Shown piece after piece: positions 10,400-52,346 of a DNA stretch of 62,000 nucleotides. The stretch is from Zygnema cylindricum (lineage: Eukaryota; Streptophyta; Zygnematophyceae; Zygnematales; Zygnemataceae): the NCBI GenBank assembly GCA_037447655.1, contig JBBHKE010002024.1, positions 1-62,000 of the forward strand, written 5' to 3'. How positions within the stretch are numbered: the stretch's first letter is position 1; every line of letters begins with the position of its first letter. The notes below the pieces were generated by a model that searched no databases, was not told where the DNA came from, and was given only the letters and a program-made list of their open reading frames with translations. The position numbers and the translations under genes were made by a program.

Positions 10400-11415
10400 T
10401 GCAATTCCGTGTCCTCCATTAGATTACATAATACGAAAGCCTCTAGATAGTTATTAACTAGCCTATTTTCAATGGCAACCACTGCTACCCAAACAGACAA
10501 GTAGACAATGTGACTGCAATCCTGTGCAGCTTGGACACCCCTGAGTCCGTAGGAAAAATAATCTCTAAAAACGCCCAACCAGACGGGTAGTTATGAGCCG
10601 GCAAAGATGCCAATTTATACAAAGCTCCCAAAGGAGAGGTGACTGTCTAAAAATATTCTAAGTCATATATCTCCCTCACAAACCTTATCTACTAAAGTAC
10701 GCTCCAATCAGAATACTGTAAAGAACCAAAAAGTTCTGAGGCCGATGTACTTTATGTACGACCTCTGTACGACAAGGCCACAGAGTAGACGCGTGTCGCA
10801 GTATGACTTGTACGTATGTCGTCCGAGATCCCCGCTACTCAATTCAATCCTGCCACGTATCGCTAAGTCACGCCACGATACGCCACGATCAAAAACCACC
10901 AAAGTTACCATTCCGGGACCTCGACGACGATTAGCGCCGTTGGATGAAGACCAGCGTTTAATGTACGCCGTTGAAATAAATGTCCGACTCATTTATTTCG
11001 TGCTGCGGATTTGGTGTACGCACTGAATTTGCTATGTCTCTATGTTTCATTTTTGCAGTTACGTTAATCGAATTAATGTTTTGTTACTGTTTAAATAAAT
11101 ATCGTACCCTATGTAATGCAACAAACTTCTACGACAGACTGGTTAGAGATGACGGCTACTCCATGCTCTGCTGCTCGGAGGTTCGAGTCTTGGCGGACTC
11201 AACCTTTTGTTGAGGGTGATTTAGGTCACTCTTAAGTCCTGCCTACGGAGCTGAGGCAGCCATGGCTTCACTAGCCTCTCTATCCTTCACTGACTACTAC
11301 AAGTATGGGGGGTAGAGTGAAGAGGTGGAGGTGGGCTGCCTACGCTTTTACTTTTGATGTTTTTACTAGTAAATTCAGACCTAAAAAATACCTTATAAAT
11401 CTAATAATTTCAACA
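10400..11415 (-). repeat. 3' LTR of element I
   Basis: 1016 bp, the same length as 15730-16745 and clearly collinear. In element orientation it starts TGTTGAAATTATTAG and ends TTGCA. It contains the block shared by this LTR group (CCATGGCT and a degenerate ACTTGTCGTAGTCACTG), the antisense tRNA-like module, and a TATA-like TTGTATAAATTGG. Confidence 0.92.
11132..11203 (+). other. tRNA-like module in the element I 3' LTR (antisense to the element)
   Basis: A D-arm/A-box-like stretch (TGGTTAGAGATGACGG, 11140-11155) is followed by a B-box-like GGTTCGAGTCT (11180-11190), with spacing as in a tRNA gene. The T-stem is only partly paired and no full acceptor stem is seen, so this is not a functional host tRNA. 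Equivalent modules occur in all LTRs of the group. Confidence 0.6.
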
Positions 11416-11430
11416 CTCCCCTTATTTTCT
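11416..11430 (-). promoter_or_regulatory. polypurine tract of element I
   Basis: In element orientation AAAATAAGGGGAG directly precedes the 3' LTR. The same tract is found before the 3' LTRs of IV, V and VII. Confidence 0.8.
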
Positions 11431-12039
11431 AGTCTAACTTTAACTTCAGTTTTAATCCACACTTTTCTCTGCAATATTTTAACTTGGGAGAAGGCACTGG
11501 TTTTGTCATCATATCAGCCACCATTTCCTCATCAGATTTATATACAAGATTCACAATTTTATTCTCAACTTTTTCTCTCACAAAACTCAATCTTATGTCC
11601 ATATGTTTAGCCTTAAAATGATGTTTTGGATTAGCTGCAATTACAATGGCAGCTTGATTATCACAAAACACTTCATGCACTCCCTCCTTCATATACCCCA
11701 GTTCTTGCAACAAGGACTTGACCCACATCAACTCTTTCACAGCAGAACAAGAGGTCATGTACTCAGCCTCCACGGTAGATTGAGCAACCACATTTTGTTG
11801 CTTACTGCTCCAACAGCAAGCACCTTCCCCAACATACAACACATACCCAAAAGTGCATCTTCTCATAGGTGCGTCCCCATAACTGGCATCACTCCAAGTA
11901 ATGATGTCAGTGTGCTCCCCTCCCAAATGGAACCATAACTCTCTAGTTCCCACCAGATATCCCATGACTCTCTTGGCTGCCTCCCAGTCTCTCTTCCTAT
12001 GATCATTAAGAATCCTACTGAGTACTCCAATTGTTGCCG
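11429..12039 (-). pseudogene. RNase H domain of element I pol
   Basis: The C-terminal 178-residue open part (11965-11429) holds the copia RNase H signature in order: the TWSDASYGD aspartate, the VEAEYM glutamate, the CDNQAAI aspartate, and HMDIRLSFVRE near the end. RNase H removes the RNA strand during reverse transcription in the virus-like particle. It ends with a stop just before the polypurine tract, as in intact copia elements. It is cut off from the RT by damage at about 11966-12040. Confidence 0.88.
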
Positions 12040-13188
12040 CTATGCCGGTATGGTACAGTTCATAAAATAGATTAAACTTCCTACGACCTGTCTATGAGGA
12101 ATAAACTTCATAAACTCTCTCTCCTCAGGACTCATCTGATCATCTAAGATCATCACTCCTCCTTTTACACTCCCATCACTTACTTTTTTCAAGTCCATGG
12201 GAGTGGTACAACTGTTAACATTTTCCATTTGGAATTTCTCAAGCATATTACCTATTGCTTCTTTCTGAGTAAGTCTGATAATCTTTTTCGCCCTATCTCT
12301 CTCCATTTGAATCCCCAAAATATATCTTGCCTCCCCTAAATCCTTCATATAAAATCTGCTTCAAAGATCTTTGTTTAACTCATTGATTTTTTCCAAATAT
12401 TTACTCAACACAAGCAAATCATCTACATAAATTGCAATAAAAATGACACCATTCTCATCATCAAACATATAGATAGAATGGTCTGAGTTGATCCTGATAT
12501 ATCCCATACCGGTGAGAAACTCATTTAGTTTGTTATTCAACTGTCGCGGAGCCTGCTTTAGTCCATACAAGGACTTTATGAGCCTGTAGACTTTGTTCTC
12601 TTCTCCTTCCTCCACGAACCCATCGGGTTGCCTCATGAAAATTTCTTCCTCTAACTCACCATTAAGAAAAGCGGTCTTAATGTCCATCCGGTGTATTTCC
12701 ATGTCTTCTGCTGCTGCCAAACTAAGGAGAATCCTTATTGATGGGAACGAAACAACCGGAGAAAAGGTCTCCTCATAGTCAATCCCCTCTTTTTGGGTGA
12801 ACCCTTTCGCTACCAATCGAGCCTTATATCTCTCAATGGTATTATCTGGGTTCAGTTCTAGTTTAAATACACATTTACACCCAATAGGTTTTCTGTTTGA
12901 AGGACAATTCGCTAGTTCCCAAGTATTTGTTTCCATGATGGAGGCCATCTCATCATTTATGGCTCTAATCGATCTTCCTTTCTCTGGACTATTTTCTGCC
13001 TCCGAGTAAGATTGAGGCTCATCTGGGTGAGATAGATTAGTTACCTTATGAGCGGCCTGTTTTTCCTGTATCCTTTTGCTGTTCCTTCTCCCTCCCTCAA
13101 ACTCCGAAGCTAGAATGGATGGAAGTCTTAGATTTCTCATCAATGTCTCATCGGCTCCCCTATCCATGGAAGCCGGTTCTGGTCCCAC
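12040..13188 (-). pseudogene. reverse transcriptase of element I pol
   Basis: The open part 13188-12361 (275 aa) runs from the linker into the copia RT with the motifs [51 protein letters not shown] and the catalytic YVDDLL. The thumb continues in a second open part (12348-12040; KDLGEARYILGIQMERD, LTQKEAIGNMLEKF, QVVGSLIYFMNC). A frameshift or stop separates them near 12360, so no full RT can be made although the catalytic residues survive. Confidence 0.9.
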
Positions 13189-13611
13189 TTCATCTATCTC
13201 CTAGAAGTCCATAGGAGTATGTGAGGTTTCCGGTGAGTCTCCTGTATCTCAAATCTCCCATGAGTCTGCAATCACGGTTTCACTAATGTCCCTTTGAGGA
13301 ACGACCGAGTTCTCCTCATTTTCGGACTCAAATCTGATTCTTATCTTCTTTGTATATTTGAAGGGGTCAAATGACTTCCCTTCATCCATGATAACTAGGT
13401 GTTAGACCAAAATGATATCTTTCTTTGCTAAGTCATAGAATCTATACCCCTTAACATCCTCATCATATCCCACAAAATATTCAGGTTTTCCCTTAGCATC
13501 TAATTTCCAGTTTCAAATAGCTGAGGTAAGGACTCTATTCATAATGTAGTTGGCAAATTTCACTGCCTCTGTCTAAAATCTCTTTCATATTTTCTTGTCG
13601 GCCAACATACT
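13189..13611 (-). pseudogene. degenerate linker between integrase and RT of element I
   Basis: Fragments of the integrase C-terminal linker are readable in several frames (for example a GYDEDVKGY-type segment around 13440-13480), broken by stops. The intact counterpart is at about 42363-42917 in element V. Confidence 0.6.
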
Positions 13612-14211
13612 TCATGCACTATCTCCTAGTGTTTGATTCAACCTCTCAGCTACCCCATTTTGTTTTGTGTTATATGGTACAGTTTTTTGGTGGTGCACTC
13701 CCTCATCTCTCTGATATTCCTCAAATTGGTTAGAGGTATATTCCCCCCTATTATCACTCCTTATTCTCTTAATGGGGGTTTCATGCAACATCTCACTCCA
13801 TCCTTTATATTCTTTGAAGTAAGTTGATGGTTCAGACTTTGTTTTTAGGAAATACACTCTAGAGTATCTAGACCAGTCATGGATTATTGTCAACATAAAC
13901 CTCTTTCCTCCAACCAAAGGTACTTTTATAAGTCCCCAAATATCTATGTGGACAAAATCTAGTAATTTCTCACCTTTATATGTGGCGACTTTGGGAAAAG
14001 GAAGTGTGTGAGCCTTACCTTGAGCACAGCCACTACAATCATCCATCATTTCATTATCCCCAAACTGAATGCCTTCTACTAACCCAAGCTTTTTCATTTC
14101 CCTCAACCTATCAAAATGCACATGCCCCAATTGCTTATGCCAGATCATCAACTTAGGAACACCAACATAGTAAGCATTTTTCTTTTCATTACTCAGGTTA
14201 AGCCTAAACAT
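13612..14211 (-). pseudogene. integrase of element I
   Basis: 199 open residues. The zinc-binding HHCC region is present (WHKQLGHVHFDRL then CSGCAQGK). The DDE catalytic triad is readable: aspartate in HIDIWG, aspartate in RSDNRGE, glutamate in NGVAERLNQTL. Integrase inserts the cDNA into the genome. The frame stops after the NQTLGDSA segment, earlier than in element V, so the C-terminal domain is cut off. Confidence 0.9.
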
Positions 14212-14214
14212 TCC

Positions 14215-14691
14215 TTAGCTACCCTTATCTGCCGTGAAGTAAACTTCATCCCCATACTTAGTTGTAAAGACTCCCTTTTTACTGAAGGTATCAAACTCCT
14301 TGTCATCTAACACACACGTAGAGGCAAGATTTTTACTCAGCTGATGAATGTAGAGTACATCTGAGAATGTAAGTGTAGAAGTCTTACCCTCCACTACGAC
14401 TTTCATATCTACTCACCCCATTAGATTTGTAGTAACCACTCTCCCATCCCCATACTTTATCTCTACAGTAGGGATCTTTCTTAGCTTAGTGAAAAGTTCC
14501 TTATCACGGCAAATATGCATGGATGCACTTGAGTGAATGATCCACCTTTTCTTTGGCGCTTCCCAAATTGCTCTAAGGGCACACTTCTGTCTCCGAGGGA
14601 TCTCTTTCTCCTCCAGACTCTCGTCAAGAAGAAGCTCCCCATCCTCCTCCGAGGACTCATCCTCACTTTCTCGTGTCACTTTTGTGACCAC
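14215..14691 (-). pseudogene. aspartic protease of element I, active site lost
   Basis: Two open parts (14691-14413 and 14406-14215) cover the protease and the following region. At the active site the family DSGAS motif reads HSSAS (WIIHSSASMH), so the catalytic aspartate is gone. Downstream EIKYGDGRVVTTNLMG and the SDVLYIHQLSKNL segment match the same positions in elements II, V and VI. The protease would cut Gag-Pol. Confidence 0.85.
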
Positions 14692-14700
14692 AAGTGCTTT

Positions 14701-15749
14701 TTACTTCCCTCCGAAAGAACTCCCTCCATGGTTCTCTTGGAGCCTTAGCTTCGACAGCTTAGCACAATCTGCTATGAAGTGTCCCAGCTTTTTGCAAAAA
14801 TGACAAAGACGCTTTGGGGGCCTCGATCCTCCATAATGATCTCTTTCCCCTTTGTACGATTTGTTCACGTCCTTCCCCCATCGGTCCCCTCTAGCTGCTA
14901 GAGCTTGAATGCTCTCTCCTCCTCTCCTAATCTCCATTGTGTTTTCCTGCACAAGTATCATCCGGACCACTGTGTTCCATTTACATGAACTATCTGGCAT
15001 TCCCTTTAACTATGAGGCATTTCCTGTACGCGGTACACTATGTTCTCGTACTCATCTGGTAGCTTCATGATAAGAGTGTTGACTTTCATTTTCATTGTAC
15101 CTCTCCACCCGGCACTTTCCATCTCCATACACAAACAACAAAGATCATTACAGTAAACTAATATCTTTCCTCCTTTGTAATTGTAACTCACTAGCTTTTG
15201 CTCAGCCAACTGGAACTCCTGAATAGTTCCAACTATATAGATCTCCACCAAACTCACCCACAACTCCTCGGCCTTGTAAATGTGAAGATGAGGGGTGGCC
15301 AAAGCTTGAGTGAGGTGCCTCAAAATGAAGTTCTTGGCAGCCATGTTTACATCCTCCCACATTTGAGTATCATTCTCCGCGGTCTTCACGGTCGTCGCTC
15401 CCAGTACAATGGCATTAAGAGTGAGGGGTGTTGTTTTTAGAAAGCTTTAGTCCTCTTTATGCCTCAGCTGTGAGAGAGAGCTGTTCAGGACTTAAGCTAT
15501 TTTTGGTTGAGTTCGGTTTGCTGCACGAAACCTCACTCCTCAAAATCCTGGTGGAGTTCGCGAAGGTGGACGTTTCACTTGTCCATTGACGATACCCCAA
15601 TATCGTTTTTTCGCACAAAGCTCTCATCATCATGGCTTCCCAATAGATGAACCCAGAATTAGATAGATGAAATCTTCCCAATAGATGAATCCATTGAAGG
15701 TGGGCACCCTAGAGGGTGGGCCTATAACCTGCAATTGTGTGTCCTCCAT
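14701..15749 (-). pseudogene. gag of element I
   Basis: The start codon (15749-15747) lies in the 5' LTR, 20 nt before its end, and reading passes through the primer binding site (LQVIGPPSR). A local duplication around FIYWE (about 15630-15690) shifts the frame. Later open parts are 15389-15006 and 15000-14701; the second holds the nucleocapsid zinc knuckle CHFCKKLGHFIADC. Gag forms the virus-like particle and binds RNA. Several frameshifts make this copy non-functional. Confidence 0.85.
15715..15729 (-). promoter_or_regulatory. half-tRNA primer binding site of element I
   Basis: In element orientation GGTTATAGGCCCACC follows the LTR directly. It differs at one base from GGTTATGGGCCCACC in II, V and VIII, which is complementary to the anticodon arm of plant initiator tRNA-Met as I recall that sequence. 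Confidence 0.75.
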
Positions 15750-16745
15750 TGGACTACAGAATACAGGCAGCCTCTAGATAGTATTTAACTAACCCACTTC
15801 AAGCCACAACCACAGCTGTCCAGCAAGGCAAACTGACAGTTTGACTGCAACCCTGTGTAGCCTGGACTCCCTTGAGTCTGTAGCAAAAAGAATCACTGAA
15901 AACAGCCAATTACCCGATATGTTATGTGGTGGCAAAGATGCCAATTTATACAAAACTCCCAAGTGAGAGGTGACCGTCTAAAATATTCTAAGTCCTACAT
16001 CTCTCTCACAAACCTTATCTACTAAAGTACGCTCCAATCAAAATACTGTAAAGTACCAAAAAGTAGTGTTGCCGATGAACTTTATGTACGGCCTCTGTAC
16101 GACAAGGCCAAAGAGTAGACGCGTGTCGCCGTTTGAGTCGTCCTTTTGTCATCCGGGATCCCCGCTGCTCAATTCAAACCTGCCACGTATCGCTAGGTCA
16201 CGCCACGTCACGCCACGTCTGAAAACCGCCAAAGTGACCATTCCGGGACTTCGGTGACGATTAGCGCCGTCAGATGAAGACCGGCTTTTAATGTACGCCA
16301 TTGAAATTAATGTCCGATTCATTTATTTGTGCGGCGGATTTGATGTACGTACTGAATCTGTTATTTCTCTATGTTTCCTTTACACAATTACGTTAATCGA
16401 TTTAATGTTTTATTCAATGTTTTAATTAATATCGTACCTTATGTGATGTAACGAACTTCTACGACAGACCAGTTAGAGATGACGGCTACGCCACGCTCTG
16501 CCGGTCGAAAGTTCGAGTCCTACCGGGCTCAACCTTTTGTTGAGAGTGACTTAGGTCACTCTTAAGTCCTGCCTATGGGGCTGAAGCAGCCATGGCTCCA
16601 CCTGCCTCTCTATCCTTCAGTGACTAAAACAAGTGTGGGGAGTAGAGTGAAGAGGTGGAGGCAGGTTGCTTGCGTTTTTACTTTTCGTGCTTTTACTAAT
16701 AAATTCAGACCTAGAAAATACCTTATAAATCTAATAATTTCAACA
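15730..16745 (-). repeat. 5' LTR of element I
   Basis: 1016 bp. A TATA-like TTGTATAAATTGG (15941-15953, minus strand) is a likely core promoter. The U3 part contains the antisense tRNA-like module and the shared CCATGG block near 16590. Many substitutions against 10400-11415 point to an old insertion. Confidence 0.92.
16464..16533 (+). other. tRNA-like module in the element I 5' LTR (antisense)
   Basis: GACAGACCAGTTAGAG-type D-arm/A-box, then a B-box-like GTTCGAGTCC at 16511-16520, then CTACCGGGCTCAACC. It is better preserved than the copy at 11132-11203. Confidence 0.62.
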
Positions 16746-21156: not shown

Positions 21157-21207
21157 CATTTGGTCGCACGTGACGACGCGTCATTTTAGTTTCATTGATA
21201 TTTATAC

Positions 21208-21655
21208 CATAGTTCAAAAGTAGGTGAAAGTACGCCATACAATATGCCTATTGTACGCAAAACATAAAATATGGCCTTAAGATCCATATTGTATTGGTCG
21301 CAAAATGAAAAAAAATAGTAACAGGGTTGAGTTGCACATCGATCGATAGAGAATAAAACGTCATGTCTAAATTTTGAAAAACATTTCGACAATTTTTTTT
21401 TTTTTTGTGAGTTTTGAGGTATTTTTTATTTAAACCGTCAGATTCGGGCGATCGGACGGTCGCTAATCAAAGTAGCGATCTAAGAGGATCACATGAAAAG
21501 CCCATAACTTAACTTACGATAGGACTATCGTCAGATTTGGAAGATCGGACGGTCGCTGATCAAAGTAAAGATTTAAGAAGATCACATGAAAAGCCCATAA
21601 CACAACTTACGATAAAGGCGCGGCCTAGAATAGAAACGCCTACTTTTGAACTATG
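21208..21655 (+). mobile_element. minisatellite-bearing inverted-repeat transposon, copy B (two 93-bp units)
   Basis: The left end CATAGTTCAAAAGTAGG and the right end CCTACTTTTGAACTATG are perfect inverted repeats. The 93-bp units start at 21436 and 21529. The 8-bp flanks (ATTTATAC and GTTTTAAC) match at five of eight positions, so a target duplication may have decayed. Confidence 0.8.
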
Positions 21656-21956
21656 GTTTTAACCGCCTACATAAGGTTCACGGTGAGCTGCTTTTTACAC
21701 CTGCGATGAGTTCGTAGAGATTAGCTAAAACGCTTGTTTACTAAACGTGTGAAGCCGCCCTAATTCAAGGCAGAAAATATCAAAGCATCTTGTCTTTTCC
21801 GGATATCGTAGCGGGCTACTTGCGAATCTTTTCGTAAATCTTCACCTTCCCTTCAGGGCGCCAGGTCACCAGTCCGTTTCAAATTTTGCTGATTTTTTTT
21901 GTTTGTTTCCTTCGGCAGTTCCTTCCGCCAGGTACAGTGTGAATCGCACGACAATA

Positions 21957-22075
21957 TAATACAGTACAGTATAGTACAGTACAGTACAGTACTGTAATGT
22001 ACAGTACTATAGAGTACTGTACTGTAATGTACTTTACTGTACTTTACAGTGCATTATAGTACTGTACTGTAGAGA
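21957..22075. repeat. GTACA/TGTAC simple repeat, partly palindromic
   Basis: Irregular repeats of AGTAC and TGTAC, first on one strand then as reverse complement (TACAGTACTGTA), able to form hairpins. Shorter copies occur near 57302 and 57490. Confidence 0.85.
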
Positions 22076-23046: not shown

Positions 23047-24123
23047 TGTTGAAATCACTGATTTAGGAGAGGTATTTTCTAGGTCTTAAATTAGGTAAAA
23101 TAAATAAAAGACTAAACTCAGGCAGCCTGCATCCACCTTCTCTCTCTAGCCCTAATACTTGTTGTACTCATTGAAGCAGAGAGAGGGCGGTGGAGCCATG
23201 GCTGCCTCAGCTCCATAGGCAGGACTAAAGAGTGACCTAAGTCACTCTCAACAAAAAGGTTGAGTTCGGTAGGACTTGAACCTCCGACCGGCAAAGCGAG
23301 GCGTAGCCGTCAGCTCTTAACGGTCTGTCGCAGTAGTCCGTTAGGATACATAAGGTTTGATAGCCATTTAAACATTAGCATGATCATAAATATGTTCAAC
23401 AGAATAATAAATTAAGAACATGGAAACTAGTTAAGTTTTAGTGCGCACGAAACAAATGTATCGGACATTGTTTTTTTGGATGGCGAACATTAAAAGCCGG
23501 TTTTGATCCGACGGCCCGCATCCTTGTCGGGATCAATAAATGGGCGTCTTAGCGGTTTCTTGACGTGGCATGACTTGACGACACTTGGCAAGATATCATT
23601 GGGAAGCGGGAATCTCGGGGAGCATGAGGACAAGTCTAAAGGAGACAGACGTCCTCTCCATGGCCTTGTCGTACACAGGCTGTATAGAAAGTATATCGGC
23701 TCTAGTACCTTTCTGTACTATAGAGTCTTCTGATTGGTTCGTACATCAATAGATAGGGGTTGTGGGAGGGATTTAGAACTTAGAGGATTGAGGAGGTAGC
23801 CGCCTCTCTCCCAACAAGCTTGTATAATTATTGGCATCTTTGCCACTTGATAATTAATTGTCTGGTTGGGCGTTTTCGGTGATTTTTTTTGTTGTGGACT
23901 CAGGGGAGTCTATACTACATAGGGGTGCAACCAGATTGTCTCGTTGGACCTTTTCACTGATTCTTTTTTTTGTGGACTCACGGGAGTCCAGACTACAAAG
24001 GGGTGCAGTCAGATTGTCTATTTGCCTGCTTAGGTAGCAGTTATCCAAATTGAAAGAGGGCTAGCCAAAAGTTACCCACAGGCTTCTTGAATTCAGTGTT
24101 CTAATAGGGGAAATAGAATTGCA
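23047..24123 (+). repeat. 5' LTR of element II
   Basis: 1077 bp, starts TGTTGAAATCACTG and ends GAATTGCA. It has the shared U3 block (CCATGGCTGCCTCAG near 23197), the antisense tRNA-like module, and a TATA-like TGTATAATTATTGG at 23821-23834. The region of the expected gag start reads ATA instead of ATG (24104-24106). Confidence 0.88.
23261..23333 (-). other. tRNA-like module in the element II LTR (antisense)
   Basis: On the minus strand: GACAGACCGTTAAGAG-type D-arm, then B-box GGTTCAAGTCC (23282-23272), then CTACCGAACTCA. The T-stem pairs at four of five positions. Closely related to the module of element I. Confidence 0.65.
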
Positions 24124-28279: not shown

Positions 28280-28302
28280 CTCCCCTAAAGCTTTAGACTC
28301 TG

Positions 28303-34714: not shown

Positions 34715-34720
34715 AGTCTA

Positions 34721-36787: not shown

Positions 36788-37647
36788 CGCTTGTCACCAC
36801 CGTTCCTCTCATCACGCTTCCGCCAATCACCACCAGCTGTAAATGCATTAAACCTGTCACTTCCCCTACGAAGCTCCAAAGTGTTTTCCCTCACAAGAAT
36901 TATCCCCATGGTAAAGCTCCAAGTCCATGAGGAGCCATCCATTGCCTGCATACGACAAATGATGTTTTCGTACTCATTTGGGAGATTCATCAGTAGTGTA
37001 TTAATCTTCCTCTCCTCAGATTCTACATATCGCGCACTAGCAAGCTCAACATATAGCGCAGCAATATCGTTGCAAAATTCTATCATGCTACCGCCTTTAT
37101 AAACATAGGCATCTATTTTTTGGTTTACTAATTGATGCCTCTGAATAGTCTTACCCTCATAAATCTGACTTAGTTTTTCCCATATCTCTGAAGACTTCAT
37201 TAAGTTTATAAAAGTGATAGCTATGGACTTAGACACGTTTCTAAGTATTATATGCTTTGCTATAGTGTTTTTGTATTCCCATATTTTTCTGTCATTTTCT
37301 TCAGTTTTAATCCCTACAAATGGAACCATACTCGAGAGCTTATCTCCCCTCACCATCGGTGTTCTTTTTTCCTTCTCCCATTTTTCCCCATCCACGGAAC
37401 GGTTTTTCCCTTCACCTTCCGTTGCATCTGAACTCCGGTTGATATTCTGGGCAGCCTCATATGATTCTCCATAGTAAGCTCCTCCAAAGCCAGGTGTTGG
37501 ACATCTCACTTGTCCCAAAACAATTCCCCATAAGTGCTTCTCGAAAAGCAATCCCTCCATAGTAAACTCCCAATAAGTGAAGTCCATTCCATCGACCATA
37601 GGCACCCTAGATGGTTGGCCCATAACCTGAAACTCTGAGACCTCCAT
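36788..37647 (-). pseudogene. gag N-terminal part of element IV, start in the LTR
   Basis: The frame from 37647 is open for about 286 residues up to the solo LTR. It starts MEVSEFQVMGQPSRVPMVDG, with the ATG 20 nt before the LTR end and the primer site translated. Then come MEGLLFEKHLWGIVLGQVR, a charged linker, and the conserved helical region (NTIAKHIILRNVSKSIAI, YKGGSMIEFCNDIAALYVE, INTLLMNLPNEYENIICRM). It is the best-preserved gag of the group. Calling it a pseudogene rests on the solo LTR that splits it. Confidence 0.88.
37613..37627 (-). promoter_or_regulatory. half-tRNA primer binding site of element IV
   Basis: In element orientation GGTTATGGGCCAACC, one mismatch to the consensus GGTTATGGGCCCACC. 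Confidence 0.78.
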
Positions 37648-39199: not shown

Positions 39200-40166
39200 T
39201 GTTGAAAATGGAGGTATTTTGTAGTCTTTCTTATGGACTTACTGCAGCCCTCATACTTGTCGTAGTCACTGAGGACCTGTATAAAGCCATGGCTGCCTAC
39301 TGCAGCTAAAGGAGACAGGCAGATCATTCAGGGCAGTTTTTCTTTGCAAAATATATTACTGCACCTTGTGAGAATTGACCCAGTGACCTCTGAATGATCA
39401 CCGTACGGAACAGCCGTACGCCTTATCCAGTAAGCCTTGAAGATTCGATACATGTGTATGGCGCGATAATAACTTAAAGTCGTACAGCGCCGGATATTTC
39501 ATTTAACAAGTTACGGAACGATTTATGCATGGAAACATACCGCGTCGCACGAAATCGGGACCGCACGAAAATTACGAATTAACATTTAATTTCGACGGAC
39601 GAAATTAAAATTTCTAGATCGAACGACTCACTGTGGGGCCGGAATACCGGAATAGACATTTGGCGGTTTGCGGAGCAGATGTCGGCGGATGATACGTGGC
39701 AACATATGGTTGGACAGCGGAAATTACGGGAGGAGCAACTACGGCTCCGGAACTGACACGCGTCAGCGGACCAGCCATGCCGTACTATGGCCGTACAAGA
39801 AGTACAGCGGTACCTGTACCTTCTTGTACTTTACAGTAATATGATTGGTCTAGTACCTTAGAGATAGGTTTAGAGAGGTAGCTTAGGACTTAGAATATTT
39901 TTCGGTTTTTCAGCCTCTCTCCAGAGAGCACCTGTATTTATTGACCAACTTTGGTCAGCCATAACTTAATGCTCAGGTGAGCAAATTCAGTGATTCTTTT
40001 TGCTGCGGACTCACGGGAGTCCAAGCTACACAGGGGTGTAGTTGGTCAGAGATTTTGCGTCCCAGGGTGGGACTTATTCATTGTCAAAGTCAAAAGTGCA
40101 TATACTATCCTAGAGGCTTCACATAAGCTGGACATTCTGTGTACCAATGGAGGTCACAGAATTACA
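39200..40166 (+). repeat. 5' LTR of element V
   Basis: 967 bp, TGTTGAAAATGGAGG...CAGAATTACA. The shared core ACTTGTCGTAGTCACTG is at 39255-39271, followed by CCATGGCTGCC near 39288. A TATA-like TGTATTTATT lies at 39933-39942. Confidence 0.94.
39360..39442 (-). other. tRNA-like module in the element V 5' LTR (antisense)
   Basis: On the minus strand: GGCTTACTGGATAAGGCG (D-arm/A-box-like, with GGATAAGGC), then a B-box-like GGGTCAATTCT, ending CACAAGGTGC. The central part TACGGCTGTTCCGTA can form an anticodon-like hairpin. Confidence 0.6.
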
Positions 40167-41135
40167 GGTTATGGGCCCACCCTCTAGGGTGCCCATTTTT
40201 AATGGAACAGGGTTCATTTATTGGGAAACCATGATAAGGGGTGCACTAGTTGAAAAACGGCTATGGGGCATTGTGAGTGGTCGTGTGCGTCGGCCATCCG
40301 CAAATTTGGGAGTTCCACCAGGGTTTGGAGGACTCGGTTCACAGGGGATCTACGGGGGCAGAGGTGGAAGAGGATGTTGAAGAGAGCATCGTGTCGGAAA
40401 TAGGGAAGGAGAAGGGGAAGGAAAAACTTACACCGATGCCTACTGGATCGGTTTTGGCAGTAGGTGTTCAGAAAACCGAGGCTAATGATAGTGAAATCTG
40501 GGATTTCCACAATACTGTGGCGACTCATTTTATTCTTAGGCGTCTCACCCAGGCAGTGGCTACACCTCATCTTCATGTGGACAGGGCGGACGAGTTGTGG
40601 GAGGTACTTTTCAACATTTACAAGAGTGGTACGATTCAGCAGCAGAAGCTGGCAGATCAGAAGTTACAAGCTTATGGGTACAAAGGGGGAAAGATGTTAG
40701 ATTTTTGTAATGACTTGGCCGGGTTATTTTTGGAGTAAGAGAGTGCAAGGAAAAGGGAGACCGAGAAAGAGAAGGTGAATACTTTGTTGATGAAACTCCC
40801 AAATGATTATAAAAACATTGTTAACAGGGTTCAGGACTTGTCAGATCATCGATGGATCTGGAACTCCGTTGTGGGAATGATTTTGGTTCGTGAAAACACA
40901 ATTGAGATTCTTAGAGGAGGAAAGAGTGTTCAGGCATTGGCTGCTGAACTAATTAGGGAGATAAGGATTCTAAGAAACCTTATAGAAACTTTGGTGGAGG
41001 GGGAAGAGGAAATCAATCAGAAGGATCTGGATCGAGGCCTCCGAAGGGGCTTTGTCACTTTTGTAAGAAGTCGGGACATTACATGGCGGAGTGTACTAAA
41101 TTGACAAAGTTGAGATTGAAGGAGGAACAGGTTGA
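40147..41135 (+). pseudogene. gag of element V, start in the LTR
   Basis: The ATG at 40147 is 20 nt before the LTR end; the frame reads MEVTELQVMGPPSRVPIFNG through the primer site. A frameshift near 40370 moves to 40277-40738 (FILRRLTQAVATPHLHV, YKGGKMLDFCNDLAGLFLE, then TAA), then 40775-41104. The zinc knuckle CHFCKKSGHYMAEC is at about 41049-41090 in another frame. Stops and shifts show it is inactive. Confidence 0.9.
40167..40181 (+). promoter_or_regulatory. half-tRNA primer binding site of element V
   Basis: GGTTATGGGCCCACC directly after the LTR; it encodes part of QVMGPP in gag. Confidence 0.83.
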
Positions 41136-41166
41136 ATAACCAGCCGCAAAGAAAAAGAAGGCATTT

Positions 41167-41698
41167 GTGGCAACACAAGTCATCGGAGAGGACTCTGATG
41201 AGGATGATGGAGAACTCCTCCTCAACGAGGAGCTGGAGGTGAAAGGTGAGCCGGAGATTCCAAGGAGGAAAAAATGTGCTTTCGGTGTAGTAAGAGAAGC
41301 TCTTCAAGAAGGATGGATTATTGATTCAAGAGCCTCTATGCATGTGTAGAGAAAAACCATTGTTTACCAAAATGAGAAAGATCCCTACTGTAGAGATAGA
41401 GTATGGGGATGGGAGAATAATCACCACTAATTTAGTGGGATCTGTGGATCTGAGAGTCTTGGTTGATGGAAAGGCATCCATAGTCACTTTCTCTAATGTT
41501 CTTTTTATCCCAGAAATGAACAAGAATCTTATCTCTACGTCAATCTTAGATGATAAGGGTTTTGAGACTAGTTCTAAGAAAGGATTCTTTGTTGCTAGCT
41601 ATGAGAATGAAGTGTACTTCACAGCTGAAAAGGGTAGCCAAGGAATGTTTAGGCTGAATTTGAGTAATGGAAAGACGGGAGTTTACTATGTGGTGTAA
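41167..41698 (+). pseudogene. aspartic protease of element V, active site changed
   Basis: WIIDSRASMHV has arginine for glycine in DSGAS, then a frame change. The next part (41321-41698) gives VEIEYGDGRIITTNLVGS, SNVLFIPEMNKNLISTSI and NEVYFTAEKGSQGMFRLNL, the region between protease and integrase. Confidence 0.88.
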
Positions 41699-41703
41699 GT
41701 GAT

Positions 41704-42393
41704 TTGATGATGTGGCATAAAAGATTGGGACATGTGCATCTAGATAGATTAAAAGAAATGAAGAAAATGGGTGTAGTTGAGGGCATACATTTTGGAGATG
41801 ATGAGACTTTGGATGATTGTAGTGGGTGTGCTCAAGGAAAAGCTCGCAGATTGCCTTTTCCAAAAGCCACAACATATAAGGGTGAAAAGGTTTTAGATTT
41901 GGTTCACACTGACATATGGGGACAGGCCAAAGTGCGATCAGTTGAAGGGAAAAGATTTATGCTTACTATCACTGACGATTGGTCTAGATACTCCAGAGTA
42001 TATTTCTTGAAAAACAAATCTGAGGCTTCGGCTTATTTTAATGAATATAAATCATAGAGTTAAAAGCTTCATGAGACACCTATAAAGAGAGTGAGAAGTG
42101 ATAATGGGGGGGAATTCACTTGTAATGAGTTTGAGGATTACTTGAAAGAGGAAGGAATTCAACACCAAAAAACTGTCCCAAAGAATCCAGAACAAAATGG
42201 TGTAGCCGAGAGACTAAATCAGACATTAAGTGATAGTGCCCGTAGTATGTTGACGGATAAAAAGATAAGGAAAAGTTTTTGGGGAGAAGCTATGAATTGT
42301 GCTAACTATCTCAAAAATAGAGTCCTTACCTCAGCTGTAAAAGGTCAAACACCTTATGAAAGATGGGGAGAAAACCTAACATATCACACTTAA
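41704..42393 (+). pseudogene. integrase of element V
   Basis: Zinc region WHKRLGHVHLDRL with CSGCAQGK. Catalytic core VHTDIWG, RSDNGGEF and NGVAERLNQTL, all kept. Two stops lie near 42056-42061 between the first and second catalytic aspartates, and a frame change follows TPYERWGENL at about 42380. It is the most complete integrase of the window in sequence terms. Confidence 0.92.
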
Positions 42394-43003
42394 AGGTGTT
42401 TGGAAGTCAAGTGTTTAGTTTAAACACAGAAAAATCTGATTGGAAGTTAGATGCTAGAGGAAATTCGGGATACTTACTTGGGTATGATGAGAACGTAAAA
42501 GGGTATAGAGTTTATGATCTTGGTAGAGAAGACATAATTCTAGTAAAACACTTCGTAGTTATGGATGAAGGAAAATCCAGAGTTCCCTTTAATGACACTA
42601 AACCGGTCATAATTAGAATTGAATCCGAAAGTGAGTTAGATGCAGATTCTACTAACCGAACTCTGGTTCAGCCTGACCGTGCAGAGGAAGAGAAAAATCT
42701 GACCGAGAGTGACCCTCTTTTGGAGTCACATCTTCCGATTCAAACCGAGGAAGAAAACGAGGAATACAGGAAATGGATGATGAACGACCGGAGATGGACT
42801 CCACAGATAGGGGAGAAGGTGAAGTTGTTCGGAGGAACCCGAGATTACCCTCGATTCCCGCGTCAGAATTTGAAGGAGGAAGGAGAAGCAGCAAGAGACT
42901 TCAAGAGAGACAAGTGAACAACAAGGTAACTAAGCTATCACATTTGAGCGAACCCCGACTTACTCAGAAGCAGTTAATAGTCCGGAAGGTGGTAGATGGG
43001 TGA
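42363..43003 (+). pseudogene. integrase-RT linker of element V
   Basis: HLKVFGSQVFSLNTEK, GYLLGYDENVKGYRVYDLG and an acidic linker lead to the RT; a second frame (42773-43003) carries FEGGRRSSKRLQERQV. This GYDENVKGYRVYDL segment is the reference for the scraps kept in the collapsed pol of IV and VII. Confidence 0.82.
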
Positions 43004-43009
43004 CAGCTA

Positions 43010-43910
43010 TTAATGATGAGATGGCTTCCATTATGGAAGCAAACTCTTGGGAGTTGGTGGATTGTCCTCTGGATAGAAAACCAATAGGGTGCAAGTGGGT
43101 GTTTTAATTGAAGCTCAATCTAGATAACACTATCGAGCGATACAAAGCCAGATTAGTGGCAAAGGGATCCACACAGAAGGAGGGAATCGATTATGAGGAG
43201 ACTTTTGCTCCAGTTGTTAGATTCCCCTCCGTCCGGATCCTACTTAGTCTCGCGGCCGCGAAAGACATGGAAGTGCACCAGATGGATATCAAAACCGCTT
43301 TCTAACATGGAGAATTGGAAGAAGAGATCTTCATGCGACAACCGCAAGGATTTGTGGAGAAAGGAGAAGAAAGCAAGGTGTGCAGATTGATAAAGTCCCT
43401 CTATCGACTAAAGCAAGCTCCACGCTAATGGAACAAAAAGTTGGACGAGTTTTTGACAAGTTTGGGATATATTCGAATTAGTTCGGATCATTCCATCTAC
43501 TTATTTGAGGATGAGGAAGGTTTAATTTTCATTGCCATATATGTTGATGATTTGCTTGTTTTGAGTAAATCAATGGTGAAAATTAATAGATTGAAAAAAG
43601 ATCTAAAAAGTAGATTTGAAATGAAAGATTTGGGGGAGGCAAAGTACATATTGGGAATACAAATGGAGAGGGATAGAGAAAAGAAGATAATTAGACTAAC
43701 CCAAAAAGAAGCAATTGGGAATATGCTTGAAAAATTTCAAATGGATAAAACAAATAGTTGTACGACACCAATGGACTTGAAGAAGGGAAGTGAGGGGAGC
43801 TCAGAAGAGGGAATCTTGATCTTAGATAATGATTTAGGACCCGAGGAAAGTAAGTTCATGCAAACTATTTCGTACAGACAGGTTGTCGGTAGTTTGATCT
43901 ATTTTATGAA
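43010..43910 (+). pseudogene. reverse transcriptase of element V
   Basis: Motifs: [48 protein letters not shown] (catalytic YVDD intact), MKDLGEAKYILGIQMERD, LTQKEAIGNMLEKFQMD and QVVGSLIYFMNC. Stops occur near 43106, 43303 and 43427. The last part is open from 43441 into RNase H. Confidence 0.92.
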
Positions 43911-44535
43911 TTGCATTCGTCTTGATATAGCAGCAACTGTGGGAGCATTAAGTAGGAGTCTGAATGATCCTAGGAAGAAAGATTGGGAAGCGACCAAAAG
44001 GGTGATGCGGTATTTGGTAGGAACAAGAGATTTGTGGTTGCATCTGGGTGGGGATAACATTGACATCACAACTTAGAGTGATGCCAGTTATGGGGATGCT
44101 CCGATGAGGAGGTGTACTTCTGGATATGTGTTGTATGTTGGGAATGGGGCTTGTTGTTGGAGCAGTAAGCAACAAAAGGTGATTGCTCAGTCCACCATGG
44201 AGGCTGATTATATGACCTCTTGTTCTGCTGTGAAAGAATTAATGCCGGTGAAATCTTTGCTTCAAGAATTGGGATATATGAAAAGCGGAGTGCAAAAAGT
44301 ATTTTGTGACAATCAAGCTGCGATCGCAATTGCAGCAAACCCTAAGCATCACTTTAAAGCAAAGCATATGGATATTCGTTTGAGCTTTATTAGAGAGAAG
44401 GTTGAGAATAAAAAAATTAGTTTGGAATATAAACCGGATGGAGAGATGGTAGCAGATATTATGACTAAACCGGTCCCTTCTCCTAAATTGATATTTTGTA
44501 GGGAGAAGTGTGGACTGAAGCAAAAGATAGACTAG
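43911..44535 (+). pseudogene. RNase H of element V
   Basis: After a stop in place of tryptophan in the DITTWSD motif (about 44076), the frame from 44104 is open to the natural end: CCWSSKQQKVIAQSTMEADY, CDNQAAIAIAANPKHHFKAK, HMDIRLSFIREKV, MTKPVPSPKLIF. It ends just before the polypurine tract. Confidence 0.92.
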
Positions 44536-44548
44536 AAAATAAGGGGAG
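44536..44548 (+). promoter_or_regulatory. polypurine tract of element V
   Basis: AAAATAAGGGGAG abuts the 3' LTR at 44549. Confidence 0.85.
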
Positions 44549-45532
44549 TGTTAAAAATGGAGGTATTTTGTAGTCTTTCTTATAGACTTACTGCAGCCCT
44601 CATACTTGTCGTCCCTCATACTTGTCGTAGTCACTGAGGACCTGTATAAAAGCCATGGCTGCTTGCTGCAGCTAAAGGAGACAGGCAGATCATTCAGGGC
44701 AGTTTTTTCTTTGCAAAATATATTACTGCACCTTGTGAGAATTGACCCAGTGACCTCGAGATGATCACCGTACGGAACAGCCGTACGCCTTATCCAGTAA
44801 ACCTTGAAGATTCGATACATGTATATGGCGCGATAATAATTTAAAGTCGTACAACGCCGGACATTTCATTTAACAAGTTACGAAACAATTTATGCATGGA
44901 AACATACCGCGTCGCACGAAATCGGGACCGCACAAAAAATACGAATTAACATTTAATTTCGACGGACGAAATTAAAATGTCTAGATCGAACGACTCACAT
45001 TGGGGCCGGAATACTGGAATACACATTTGGCGGTTTGCGGAGCAGATGTCGACGGATGACACGTGGCAACATATGGTTGGACAGCGGACATTACGGGAGG
45101 AGCAACTACGGCTCCGGAACTGACACGCGCCAGCGGACCTGCCATGCCATACTATGGCCATACAAGAAGTACAGCGGTACCTGTACCTTCTTGTACTTTA
45201 CAGTCATATGATTGGTCTAGTATCTTAGAGATAGGTTTAGAGAGGTAGCTTAGGACTTAGAATATTTTTGAGTTTCAGCCTCTCTCCCAGAGAGCATCTG
45301 TACAAATAGGTCATCTTTGACCATTGATAACTTAATGCTCGGGTGAGCAAATTCACTGATTCTTTTTGCAGGAGACTCAGGGGAGTCCAGGCTACACAGG
45401 GCTGTAGTCGGTCAGAGTTTTTGCGTCCCAGGGTGGGACTTATTCATTGTCAAAGTCAAAAGTGCATATATTATCCTAGAGGCTTCACATAAGCTGGAGA
45501 TTCTGTGTACCAATGGAGGTCACAGAATTACA
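44549..45532 (+). repeat. 3' LTR of element V, possibly shared with element VI
   Basis: 984 bp, collinear with 39200-40166 and with a local CTCATACTTGTCGT duplication near 44600. Its final gag start (45513) reads in frame, without a primer site, straight into the gag C-terminal half of element VI. Confidence 0.92.
44727..44806 (-). other. tRNA-like module in the element V 3' LTR (antisense)
   Basis: Copy of the module at 39360-39442 with a few substitutions (GGTTTACTGGATAAGGCG on the minus strand). Confidence 0.6.
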
Positions 45533-45937
45533 GAGTTTACAAGCTATGGCAACAAGAACTGATTTGAGGAGCAAGGATCCCAGAAAATCAGTAGGAAACT
45601 GTGGAGGAGGAGGACAGAAAACTTCATCCGATGAATTAGGACCAAGGGTCTTAAAGGGGTTGTGGTATTTTTGCAAGAAATGAGGACACTAAATGGCAAA
45701 GTGTACGAAGCTAACCGAGCTCCTACTAAAGAGGTGGAGATCGGTGGACCCCCGAAAGCAAAGAAAAATGCCCTTGTGACACAGGTATATGAGGCGGAAT
45801 CTAAGGACGAGGACGATGAGCTCCTATAAGATGAGGAGTTGGAGGCGAAAAACGAGGTCGAAATTTCATAAAAGCAGAAATGCGCTTTCGGTGGATTGAA
45901 AGGTGAAGCAGGCTAGATTGTAGATTCAGGTGCCTCC
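45533..45937 (+). pseudogene. gag C-terminal part of element VI
   Basis: SLQAMATRTD then a basic linker and a broken zinc knuckle (FCKK, stop, GH, stop, MAKC), followed by the acidic tail and a KCAFGGLKGEAG-type segment. Badly decayed. Confidence 0.82.
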
Positions 45938-49242: not shown

Positions 49243-50480
49243 TGTTGAAATATGTGTATTTTCTAGGTCTATATTGTGTAGATAATAATGTTTTTCCTAG
49301 GATATTTTTCTAGGGTGAAATAGAAAAGAAGCGGAGGCAGTCTGCCTCTAACTCCTCTCTCTAACCCCCACACTTGTCGTAGTCACTGGAAGCTAGAGAG
49401 GGAGCTAGAGTCATGGCTGCCTAAGCTGCCTGGAGAGACAGGTAGTTTAATCTAGGTAGATTTACCAAAAGGGATTTGATGGACCCAAGATTTGATCCTG
49501 GTACCTACCGTCTGTCAAATCACCCGTAGCCGTAAGCCTTATCTTATAGACTAGGATGAATGTTGAGACATTTAGGATTTGATAAGTATTTAAAGACATA
49601 CAATTACAAAAATTCATTTAACGGCGCGAACAGACATGTAACATAGACAAAGTTTAAATGTACGTACGGCGTACGGTACCTCACTAAATGAATACCGCGC
49701 ATTTGTTTCGACATTGAACAAATACCACACATTGATTTTCGACGGCTGGATTTAAAATCGATCTTAATCGAACGGCCGCGATAGATGCTGAGATCGCGGA
49801 ATGGGCGTTTTGGCTGTTTTCGGTCATCGCCACGTCAAATGATACGTGGCACAATCACATTAGATTGCGGCAACTCCGGAGATTACGGTAACAAATCCGG
49901 ATATGGCATGTGTCGACTTTTTGGCCATGTCGTACGATGGTCGTACAAAAAGTACACCGACACGTATACATTTCTATACAACACAGTATTGTGATTGGTG
50001 TCGTACGTCAGTAGATAGAGTTTTAGAGAGAGATAGGACTTAGAAAATTTAGTAGGTAGCCACCTCTTCGAGAGAGCTCTTGTATAAAAGGTCATCTTTG
50101 ACCACTCATAACTTACTGCTCAAGGGAGCAAATTCAGAGATTTTTTTTACTGGCGACTCAAGGGAGTCCATGCTACACAAGGGTGTAGTTGGTTAGAGTC
50201 TTTGCTTGCCAGGGTGGCTGCATTTCTACGGGAAATTTAAAGTGGGTGGTTAGAGTCTTTGCTTGCCAAGGTGGCTCCATTTCTACGGGAAAGTTAAAGT
50301 GGGTGAATGTGTCTAAAACTCATATTCTAGCTTTGCATTCTGTGGTGGAACTGAGCACACAGAAAGTCTTATTTCACAGGGGTGAAGTTGTATTGGGGTT
50401 TTGATTGTCAAGGGGTCAATCATTTGGGTTTTTACCAACTTGGAGTCGGCACTAACTAGATAAGCTTCTTTGGATCTTCG
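49243..50480 (+). repeat. 3' LTR of element VII
   Basis: Starts TGTTGAAATATGTG; shared core ACTTGTCGTAGTCACTG at about 49372-49388. It includes a tandem duplication of about 58 bp (around 50190-50247 and 50248-50305). The 3' boundary is uncertain: the last bases diverge from the LTR of IV after about 50475 and no clean CA end is seen. Confidence 0.8.
49470..49552 (-). other. tRNA-like module in the element VII LTR (antisense), initiator-like T-arm
   Basis: On the minus strand: ATAAGATAAGGCTTACGGC then a T-arm CCAGG-ATCAAAT-CTTGG (four or five pairs with a G-T), followed by GTCCATCA. Confidence 0.64.
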
Positions 50481-51173
50481 AATTCTGTGGGGGAATTGAC
50501 CCTCTAAATTGTGACCATTGATTTGATTACGTAGTTCACACGTTAGGATTTTATTCCTTTACGTGAAACACAAGTAGCGTAGTACTTACGCCATTCACAC
50601 ATATAAAATGTACTCATGCTTGATATTGAATTTTAATCATCAATCTACTGTATGATTCTCTCCAATTTTTCCCAGCTGCTATTTTTGCACTGAGTTCTTA
50701 TTTTGTTGTGTTATCTATCTTATTCATTGTTTAGTAATTAAGCTTGTTTTCTCATATAGAGAATTGTTTTCCTTAGCTTCTTGTCTTGTAATTGATCGAT
50801 CATATGCCCACTTTTACTGAATCTCAACAATACCCTCCTAAGATGTACACATCATTTATCCACAAATCTTGCTTATTTTACACCACTAAAATCAGGATAT
50901 GCGTCGCCAAGATGTTGCGGAGATTTTTCAATAGACGCACATTCGATTATTGACAAATTACACCTCCACTTTGTTGATGTTGGTGGAGCGACAAATCTGC
51001 TCATCTCGACTGCGTGGAAGTGGCGCGATCGTGATTGGGCTACATATCATTATATATGTATTTTACAAATGTGTGATATAATCCACATTTTCAATGGAGG
51101 GATGCCAATTATGGGGGTATTCTCACTCATAAATATATTTTTGACTATGTCTTGAAGTAGAGAACGGAGGAAG
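50481..51173. other. non-coding stretch between elements VII and VIII
   Basis: No gene or repeat recognised. Confidence 0.5.
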
Positions 51174-51511
51174 TTAAGGGCCGGTATCCTCCTTGATTTT
51201 GGAGTCCTTTCGAGAAGTAACTTCTCCTTTTTCTCCTTCCATTATTATTTCCTCCCCTTCATCGTCATCCTTCGTGATAGTGGTTGATGTTGTTGTAGCT
51301 GTTGTGACGGCTGTGGTGGTGGAGGTGCTAATAAAATGTGTTCCTCCAAACCTAGGTGGTGGTGGGCATCGAATTAGCCTGGACACTATGCCCCATAGGT
51401 GCTTCTCAAAAATTCTCCCTCCATCATCATTTCCCCATTAAGAAAGTGTGATCTATTAAATATCGGCACCCTGGAGGGTGGGCCCATAACCTGAAATTCG
51501 GTGGTCTTCAT
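51174..51511 (-). pseudogene. gag N-terminal fragment of element VIII
   Basis: The ATG at 51511 is again 20 nt inside the LTR: MKTTEFQVMGPPSRVPIFN, then a stop near 51380. Another frame continues with CPPPPRFGGTHF and a threonine-rich, then acidic linker. The layout matches the gag of element IV. Confidence 0.8.
51477..51491 (-). promoter_or_regulatory. half-tRNA primer binding site of element VIII
   Basis: In element orientation GGTTATGGGCCCACC, no mismatch to the group consensus. Confidence 0.82.
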
Positions 51512-52346
51512 TAACCTACACAATGAGCAGCCTATGTAAAGCCTCCACTTTACCACTGAATAAACGCCACCCAGGCACACAAATTTTATAACCACCCTCA
51601 CCCGTGTGAGGATAAGACTCCCCTGGGTCAAACGCAAAAAGAATCAATGAATTTGCTCTTTTGAGCAGTAAGTTATGGCTGGCCGAATATGGCCTATAAA
51701 CACAAAAGGTCACTTGAAGAGAGGCGCCTAAAACACACTAAGTCCCTAAAATCCTACTCATAGCTATCTACTACTGTACCCTTGACCAATCAAATGAGTG
51801 TATAATACAAGAAGGTACAGTGGCCGATTGTACTTTTTATCCATCCATTGTACAACATGGCATTTCGCTTGAGAGGCATCGTTCCTCCTTCCATATTTTC
51901 TAGCGTTCAATGATAGATCCACGTGGCACAGCGCGCCACTATGTCCGAAAGCCGTCAAATATTCATTTGGGTTTGGCGGCGGCGACGACGACGTCAGACC
52001 GATCATATATTTTACCTGGTTAGATTCGCGTCCGCGAGCGCCGTTGTCTATATGTGCCGTTTTGTTGATTTGATTTGTTGAAGTTAAAATGACGTCGCGT
52101 GACTCTTTAATCAAATATCAAACCACATACGTCTTTTTTTTGTCAATGCCTTAACGGATAAGGCGTACGTCTACATGGTACTCCGCGGACCTAGGTTCAA
52201 ATTTGGTCTAGGGCAACATTTTGGCCATCTATTAGTCTGTATGTCTGTCTCTTTCTGACTATGGGGGTAGCCATGGTGACTCTCTCTCTCTCTCTTCTCT
52301 CTAGAGTCTAAATTATTAAGTGAATATTAATTTCTTCTTTTCAATA
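51492..52346 (-). repeat. 5' LTR of element VIII
   Basis: Ends (element orientation) CCGAATTTCA. It contains the tRNA-like module and CCATGG near a CT run (52270-52300). The outer boundary near 52346 is approximate because the expected TGTTGA is decayed. Confidence 0.72.
52142..52216 (+). other. tRNA-like module in the element VIII LTR (antisense)
   Basis: D-arm GCC-TTAACGGATAA-GGC (52148-52164) with a proper 3-bp stem and GG in the loop, then B-box GGTTCAAATTT (52194-52204) and GGTCTAGGGCA. The D-arm closely recalls that of arginine tRNAs (TAATGGATAAGGC). Confidence 0.66.

Follow-up and report, generated by a model that had tools for sequence, protein, structure and literature searches.

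What would the internal promoter boxes of a tRNA gene be doing in the long terminal repeats (LTRs) of Copia retrotransposons, on the strand opposite to the element? The question is raised by positions 1 to 62,000 of contig JBBHKE010002024.1 from Zygnema cylindricum, a stretch of 62,000 nucleotides (nt), here called the window, that is a nest of Copia elements. An earlier annotation of this DNA (the original prediction) reported antisense A- and B-box motifs in ten LTR copies, and that observation is confirmed here. In the reading that we favour, to which we assign a probability of about 0.64, the U3 region of this plant Copia lineage carries a compact antisense type 2 (tRNA-gene-like) RNA polymerase III (Pol III) unit, inherited from the common ancestor of seven LTR families, in which selection has maintained a promoter with its terminator rather than a tRNA.

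Antisense A and B boxes in ten LTRs

The LTRs that contain the module are approximately 0.9–1.2 kb each and can be aligned along their whole length (for the alignment LTR II was ended at position 23950, and the copy originally described as a solo LTR, here 'solo', carried some leader). The ten copies represent seven families that share 51–74% nucleotide identity with one another, and identity within pairs is 84.4% (I), 95.8% (IV) and 92–94% (VII). Nine of the ten begin with TGTTG or a near variant (the 5′ end of 'solo' was not seen), and the 3′ end is CA. What had been counted as six lineages is therefore a set of divergent families of one LTR lineage.

Alignment places tRNA-type A and B boxes at one homologous LTR position in all seven families. 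Each of the ten modules was found where it had been predicted or no more than approximately 60 nt away, and in every copy the module strand is opposite to that of the element. The B-box strings originally listed occur exactly in only three copies (II, IV 3′ and V), but all ten B boxes are within two mismatches of GGTTCRANYCC, and that of LTR II (23272–23282) has no mismatch to the canonical sequence. Spacing between the A and B boxes varies from 38 to 47 nt across copies, and that between the B box and the downstream run of four T residues (T4) from 25 to 30 nt. The modules are as follows.

LTR I 3′: 11090–11208, plus strand (element on the minus strand); TTTAAAT 11090–11096, D-arm 11141–11149, B box 11180–11190, TTTT 11205–11208
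LTR I 5′: 16420–16538, plus strand; TATA-like TTTTAATT 16420–16427, D-arm 16471–16479, B box 16510–16520, TTTT 16535–16538
LTR II: 23253–23372, minus strand (element on the plus strand); TATA-like block 23366–23372, D-arm 23314–23322, B box 23272–23282, TTTTT 23253–23257
LTR IV 3′: 34375–34504, plus strand; TATA-like block 34375–34381, D-arm 34426–34434, B box 34472–34482, TTTT 34501–34504
LTR IV 5′: 38495–38624, plus strand; TATA-like block 38495–38501, D-arm 38546–38554, B box 38592–38602, TTTT 38621–38624
LTR V: 36459–36580, plus strand; TATA-like block 36459–36465, D-arm 36510–36518, B box 36549–36559, TTTT 36577–36580
LTR VII 5′: 39348–39478, minus strand; TTTAAGT 39472–39478, D-arm 39420–39428, B box 39371–39381, TTTT 39348–39351
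LTR VII 3′: 44715–44845, minus strand; TATA-like block 44839–44845, D-arm 44787–44795, B box 44738–44748, TTTT 44715–44718
LTR VIII: 49467–49594, minus strand; TATA-like block 49588–49594, D-arm 49536–49544, B box 49488–49498, TTTT 49467–49470
'Solo' LTR: 52106–52222, plus strand; TTTAATC 52106–52112, D-arm 52156–52164, B box 52194–52204, TTTT 52219–52222

An upstream TATA-like block and a downstream terminator signal

Two signals that did not form part of the original prediction accompany the boxes in all ten copies. TTTAA starts 50 or 51 nt upstream of the D-loop GG, which places it approximately 33 nt ahead of the expected tRNA nucleotide 1, and TTTT starts 25–30 nt downstream of the B-box start. 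All four signals are kept in both LTRs of pairs IV and VII. An upstream TATA motif and a downstream poly(T) tract are known parts of plant tRNA genes (passages of PMC11700998).

Seven representatives, one per family (I 5′, II, IV 3′, V, VII 5′, VIII and 'solo', with the three sister copies omitted), were scanned for shared k-mers from −160 to 0 relative to the GG (tolerance 3) and from +11 to +110 after the B-box start (tolerance 6). The k-mers were left free, but the anchors and tolerances were chosen after the modules had been seen. The sole 4-mers present in all seven were TTTA/TTAA at approximately −51 and TTTT at +25, and among 5-mers only TTTAA was found in all seven. The terminator and TATA-like block argue for real transcription rather than binding of TFIIIC alone.

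Specificity and local conservation of the boxes

A descriptor made up of an A box (TRGYNNAR..GG), a B box with at most two mismatches and TTTT 22–35 nt from the B-box start was run on both strands of the window; it followed the tRNA-gene consensus and was written after the modules had been seen. With up to four mismatches in A and B together it returned 11 matches, namely nine of the ten modules, none elsewhere in the ten LTRs and two outside them (20566, plus strand, and 29601, minus strand). Up to five mismatches recovered all ten modules and six outside sites. Module VIII, whose A box is weak, is the poorest of the ten by this measure. There was no match in the four control LTRs of two other elements (5441–10364 and element III). 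Against 300 block-wise dinucleotide shuffles, six matches with up to three mismatches compare with a mean of 0.6 (maximum 3), and 11 with up to four compare with a mean of 3.1 (maximum 8).

When the seven representatives were scored at homologous positions along the LTR alignment, the summed B-box mismatch at the module was 9; the next best antisense position scored 22 and the best sense position 24, with a mean of approximately 42 and a standard deviation of approximately 7. The module is also the sole place on the antisense strand with T4 in at least six of the seven. Within individual LTRs it is the best combination of A box, B box and T4 in nine of ten, equalled by a fraction of 0–0.1 of 40 shuffles in those nine. 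The A box, B box and downstream T4 that define a type 2 Pol III gene are all present.

It had been suggested that the boxes should be more conserved than their neighbours. Pairwise column identity was scored in 11-column windows over the part of U3 that surrounds the module, using the 231 columns occupied in at least six of seven families. The B box is the best-conserved window (0.77; local mean 0.50), and next come the D-arm/GGCTAC block and the TTTAA block, in that order.

Points against, and the absence of a tRNA

Several results weigh against a Pol III unit. Conservation of the B box stands out only locally: over the whole LTR it ranks at the 86th percentile, behind 16 non-overlapping windows. 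The seven families are homologous and do not amount to seven independent trials. At up to five mismatches the descriptor count is not exceptional (16 observed, shuffle mean 8.0, maximum 18). In LTR VIII the best combination of A box, B box and T4 lies elsewhere in the LTR, and 0.2 of shuffles do as well; with the T4 requirement dropped, the module is the best A and B pair in only seven of ten LTRs, and there are ties in two of the remaining three. In I 5′ and II the A box that matches best does not stand in register with the D-loop GG, and a sense poly-T block elsewhere in the LTR likewise gives T4 in at least six of the seven representatives. A k-mer scan with the B box as its only anchor and a tolerance of 2 gave no 4-mer common to all ten copies, because both the A–B spacing and the distance from the B box to T4 vary. 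A CAA is found within 45 nt before the GG in seven of the ten copies and lies at the expected plant start site only in I 3′ and VIII. In angiosperms, only 22–32% of tRNA genes have TATA motifs, according to passages of PMC11700998. Finally, the refutation test posed with the original prediction splits: local conservation of the B box speaks for the module, but no tRNA covariance match up to an E value of 10 was found with Rfam in the window, and the Rfam tRNA model found nothing in 121 nt slices of four of the ten modules. The Pol III-type module first proposed is thus upheld by a TATA-like block and a terminator at near-fixed places around the boxes, but not by a tRNA-model match.

A functional tRNA or tRNA gene was considered and rejected, as neither the Rfam tRNA model nor ARAGORN had a match in the window at the thresholds applied, and the modules share no conserved cloverleaf. 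For the ten modules together RNAalifold gave three weak pairs (−0.4 kcal/mol), and in none of these do both partners vary. Single-strand folds of eight modules had z-scores of −0.2 to −2.2, with three near −2 (I 5′, V and VII 5′), and had no common shape. In the slice of module II the tRNA-like mascRNA model matched weakly (11.5 bits, E value 6.8). As tRNA-model matches and a conserved cloverleaf are both lacking, we read the module as a putative Pol III promoter and terminator and not as a tRNA; the lack of a conserved fold fits selection on the promoter rather than on the RNA. For annotation, loss of the fold means that tRNA searches of the kind applied here miss such units.

A proposed role in the LTR

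From the four signals, their spacing, their strand and their conservation we infer Pol III binding, transcription, selection and a function. In the order TATA-like TTTAA, A box, B box and TTTT terminator, the unit would direct synthesis of an RNA of approximately 90–105 nt. The predicted transcript would start and stop within U3, heading towards the LTR edge. An RNA polymerase II (Pol II)-type TATA region, TTGTATAA or an aligned variant, is found at LTR positions 733–838 in seven of eight scanned LTR sequences, and at 596 in 'solo', counted from a 5′ end that is uncertain. The unit would point away from this region, which lies roughly 400–490 nt from its upstream edge. As the unit is antisense, it cannot make the genomic RNA of the element. 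In the mechanism that we favour, occupancy by TFIIIC, TFIIIB and Pol III, together with outward transcription, would instead hold the LTR open or shield the Pol II promoter from flanking heterochromatin as a boundary. The boundary proposal is made by analogy with tRNA-gene and B2 boundaries (passages of PMC8136502), and taken on its own such a role is a tentative suggestion, held well short of even odds. In the chief alternative, the RNA, being antisense to U3, would itself regulate the element.

Primer binding sites and the 'solo' copy

The primer binding site (PBS) bears on where the module came from. A PBS of the form GGTTATGGGCCCACC is present in five of the seven module-bearing elements (three exact and two with one mismatch), and none was found in the search for V or VIII. 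The sites are as follows.

Element I: 15715–15729, minus strand, one mismatch to GGTTATGGGCCCACC
Element II: 24124–24138, plus strand, exact
Element IV: 37613–37627, minus strand, one mismatch
Element VII: 40167–40181, plus strand, exact
'Solo' copy: 51477–51491, minus strand, exact, adjoining the LTR end

As the exact PBS of element II starts at 24124, LTR II runs to 24123. A further match to GGTTATGGGCCCACC, with three mismatches, lies at 13175 within coding sequence. The copy at 51342–52300 had been called a solo LTR. A PBS (51477–51491, minus strand) and leader directly follow it, so it is a 5′ LTR with the leader of a truncated element. We take GGTTATGGGCCCACC to pair with the anticodon arm of initiator tRNA-Met. 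The control element at 5441–10364 has a different PBS, TTGGTATCGGAGC, which presumably is of the usual full-tRNA type.

Origin of the module and alternative explanations

As the site and strand are common to all seven families, one ancestral acquisition is the simplest account of the distribution, and the module would be old, with families down to 51% identity. Such an acquisition is equally part of an explanation without function, in which a tRNA pseudogene or a short interspersed element (SINE) with a tRNA head inserted antisense in an ancestral U3, leaving boxes that are inherited and decaying. The single homologous position in all seven families and the loss of any tRNA fold are as this would predict, and Kojima proposes SINE insertion as a source of tRNA-bearing LTRs (passages of PMC10886601). 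We nevertheless regard a relic as rather unlikely, since TTTAA, the B box and T4 have been retained while the neighbourhood averages 0.50 and the families are 51–74% identical. Retention could also have another cause, if the conserved blocks were U3 sites for Pol II or chromatin factors that happen to resemble A and B boxes, with TTTAA and AAAA acting on the sense strand. The LTRs do contain many other conserved blocks, such as CCATGGCT, TTTGGCGGTTT and GATACGTGGCA. However, all four signals are read on one strand, and their order and spacing are those of a single known type of promoter, which makes the explanation quite improbable. Chance resemblance is a further candidate: single boxes are short, and the descriptor also matches two non-LTR sites at up to four mismatches and six at up to five, where the total is within the range of the shuffles. 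But one homologous site is matched in nine (up to four mismatches) or ten (up to five) of ten LTR copies, and both the position-by-position B-box score and the k-mer scan disagree with chance, to which we accordingly give very little weight.

The original prediction also pointed out that a copied tRNA primer would leave antisense tRNA sequence, here by read-through of reverse transcriptase (RT) into the primer. The orientation agrees with this, and the T arm of module IV is identical at 24 of 27 positions to that of plant initiator tRNA-Met, which probably serves as primer. A PBS that pairs with the anticodon arm of this tRNA, however, points to a 3′-truncated primer that would have no T arm, yet it is the T-arm B box that is kept best in the module; the module also lies in U3, far from the PBS (approximately 700–800 nt in element I). 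Modules VII 5′ and 'solo' are closest to tRNA-Arg(ACG), and I and II resemble neither tRNA. We therefore reject copying of the primer, a highly improbable origin. Primers truncated at the 3′ end have been described (passages of PMC10886601).

These resemblances come from a comparison of the ten modules, with the boxes held fixed, against an unverified panel of 22 tRNAs, and with ten modules tested the result is not relied upon. With three tRNAs the matches had looked clean; with 22 they were less so. Both copies of IV gave P = 0.005 for initiator tRNA-Met, VII 5′ and 'solo' P = 0.010 each for tRNA-Arg(ACG), and II P = 0.020 for Ser/Asn as its best match. No tRNA stood out for I 3′, I 5′, V, VII 3′ or VIII (P = 0.055–0.25), and V was a tie between Met and Ser. 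These figures hint at a possible exchange of the tRNA sequence on several occasions. One could then picture an LTR lineage of autonomous type in which an antisense Pol III gene is a standing part of U3, as an insulator or regulator, while its tRNA-like body is renewed over time with sequence from various cellular tRNAs. Template switching onto tRNAs as plus-strand strong-stop DNA is made is one conceivable route, and it would yield the orientation of the module. IV and, less clearly, V and VIII would then have drawn on initiator tRNA-Met, and VII and 'solo' on tRNA-Arg. We consider this extension of the promoter-and-terminator reading unlikely.

The Copia elements and other features of the window

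Three module-bearing elements have LTR pairs, and two further elements without the module served as controls.

Element I: 10399–16745, minus strand; LTRs 10399–11415 and 15729–16745; BLAST bounds, reaching 1 base into the PBS
Element IV: 33507–38818, minus strand; LTRs 33507–34699 and 37627–38818; BLAST bounds, with LTR fragment V inside
Element VII: 39200–45533, plus strand; LTRs 39200–40167 and 44549–45533; BLAST bounds, reaching 1 base into the PBS
Control element: 5441–10364, plus strand; LTRs 5441–6454 and 9343–10364; PBS-like TTGGTATCGGAGC after the first LTR
Control element III: 27440–33147, minus strand; LTRs 27440–28279 and 32369–33147; RT open reading frame (ORF) on the minus strand

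Elements I and VII are 6.3 kb, and IV is 5.3 kb including the nested fragment. In open frames Pfam detects an integrase in I and a gag in IV; RVT_2 is found in VII and also ahead of LTR VIII, on its upstream side. Pfam and ORF analysis assigned the complete domain set to no single module-bearing element, and the reading frames are broken up. Clean target site duplications were not found for I, IV or VII in the flanks inspected. The module was also considered, and set aside, as a hot spot for nested insertion; judging from repeat coordinates only, element IV sits within the RT coding sequence of another copy. Element III, whose LTR differs from the module-bearing type, has a long open RVT_2 frame (28876–29982, minus strand, 369 aa from stop to stop).

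Protein searches returned 8, 23 and 3 relatives, the best of them 64% identical to the element I integrase and located on a 1.2 kb contig. The one named plant among the relatives, Mucuna pruriens, is distant. No related locus was confirmed by protein in bacterial/archaeal or viral contigs, both plant-free collections, and none was confirmed for the PBS pattern in the (plant-free) viral contigs.

On the sense strand, the LTR blocks GTATTTTCTAG, CCATGGCT, TTTGGCGGTTT, GATACGTGGCA and GATTCTTTTTG are more conserved than the module; we take GATACGTGGCA to be G-box-like. The descriptor match at 20566 (plus strand), outside the LTRs, has a B box with one mismatch, an A box with two and T4 downstream, and could be due to chance or to a decayed tRNA-type repeat. 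A dispersed repeat of approximately 0.2–0.5 kb occurs in both orientations at 3265–3719, 21206–21665, 55744–56071 and 56540–57083 (84–93% identical), and a tandem array with a 49 nt period occupies 55061–55624. At 21954–22073 there is an AT-rich inverted repeat of the GTACAGTAC type with weak Rfam microRNA-precursor matches, all far below gathering scores. A GC-rich stretch at 59747–61609 (plus strand) contains fragments of a host gene with RCC1 repeats (UVR8-like), and for the second RCC1 frame (59.7–61.6 kb) UVR8 is the closest among solved structures, in keeping with a plant host.

Comparison with known systems

Half-tRNA-Met primer sites are known from the Osser, Bryco and part of the Gymco-II Copia lineages (Neumann 2019, passages of PMC6317226). 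The PBS GGTTATGGGCCCACC fits that type. The relevant passages of that source do not mention a tRNA-like module.

The original prediction compared the module with Cassandra. That comparison is apt as to kind, in that Cassandra LTRs also contain the Pol III promoter of a small-RNA gene conserved over a long time (passages of PMC10886601 and PMC10853983), but here the promoter is of tRNA type and not 5S, is antisense and sits in elements with Copia coding domains. The Rfam 5S rRNA model had no match in the window.

Helenus (TRIMp3) is closer. There, as here, tRNA-like A and B boxes are conserved in LTRs (Kojima 2024, passages of PMC10886601), and few of the LTRs encode a plausible tRNA; one plant family of Helenus is known, from Selaginella. 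Kojima infers that in Helenus the retained unit is the promoter rather than the tRNA, and our reading of the module is the same. Helenus elements are short non-autonomous terminal-repeat retrotransposons in miniature (TRIMs) of 311–1263 bp, in which, by Kojima's proposal, the Pol III promoter drives synthesis of the template RNA, whereas here the LTRs alone are approximately 0.9–1.2 kb and include a Pol II-type TATA region, and the elements encode Copia domains. The module, moreover, is antisense and has its own nearby terminator, while a sense orientation in Helenus is implied by the author's proposal (same source). The Zygnema elements thus share with Helenus the boxes within the LTR, of probable tRNA descent, and are neither short non-coding elements nor equipped with a sense promoter of this kind. 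According to Kojima, not a few Repbase LTRs resemble part of a tRNA (passages of PMC10886601), and other cases of tRNA-like LTRs may exist. Among the matches listed, no title or abstract opening described an antisense Pol III unit in Copia LTRs, in a literature search that mostly did not cover subscription journals.

For the proposed function the nearest likeness is to tRNA genes and B2 SINEs, whose B-box elements are discussed as chromatin boundaries (passages of PMC8136502); those are separate genes or SINEs and not parts of LTRs, and for the module the function is proposed by analogy. LTR Pol III promoters have been reported for tiny non-autonomous elements, where they are thought to make the element's own RNA, and Kojima argues that their autonomous partners have to use Pol II instead (passages of PMC10886601). 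If the promoter-and-terminator reading is correct, LTR Pol III promoters would also serve regulation or insulation, and the ten copies in this one window would provide a test bed for the protection of retrotransposon promoters from plant silencing by Pol III genes.

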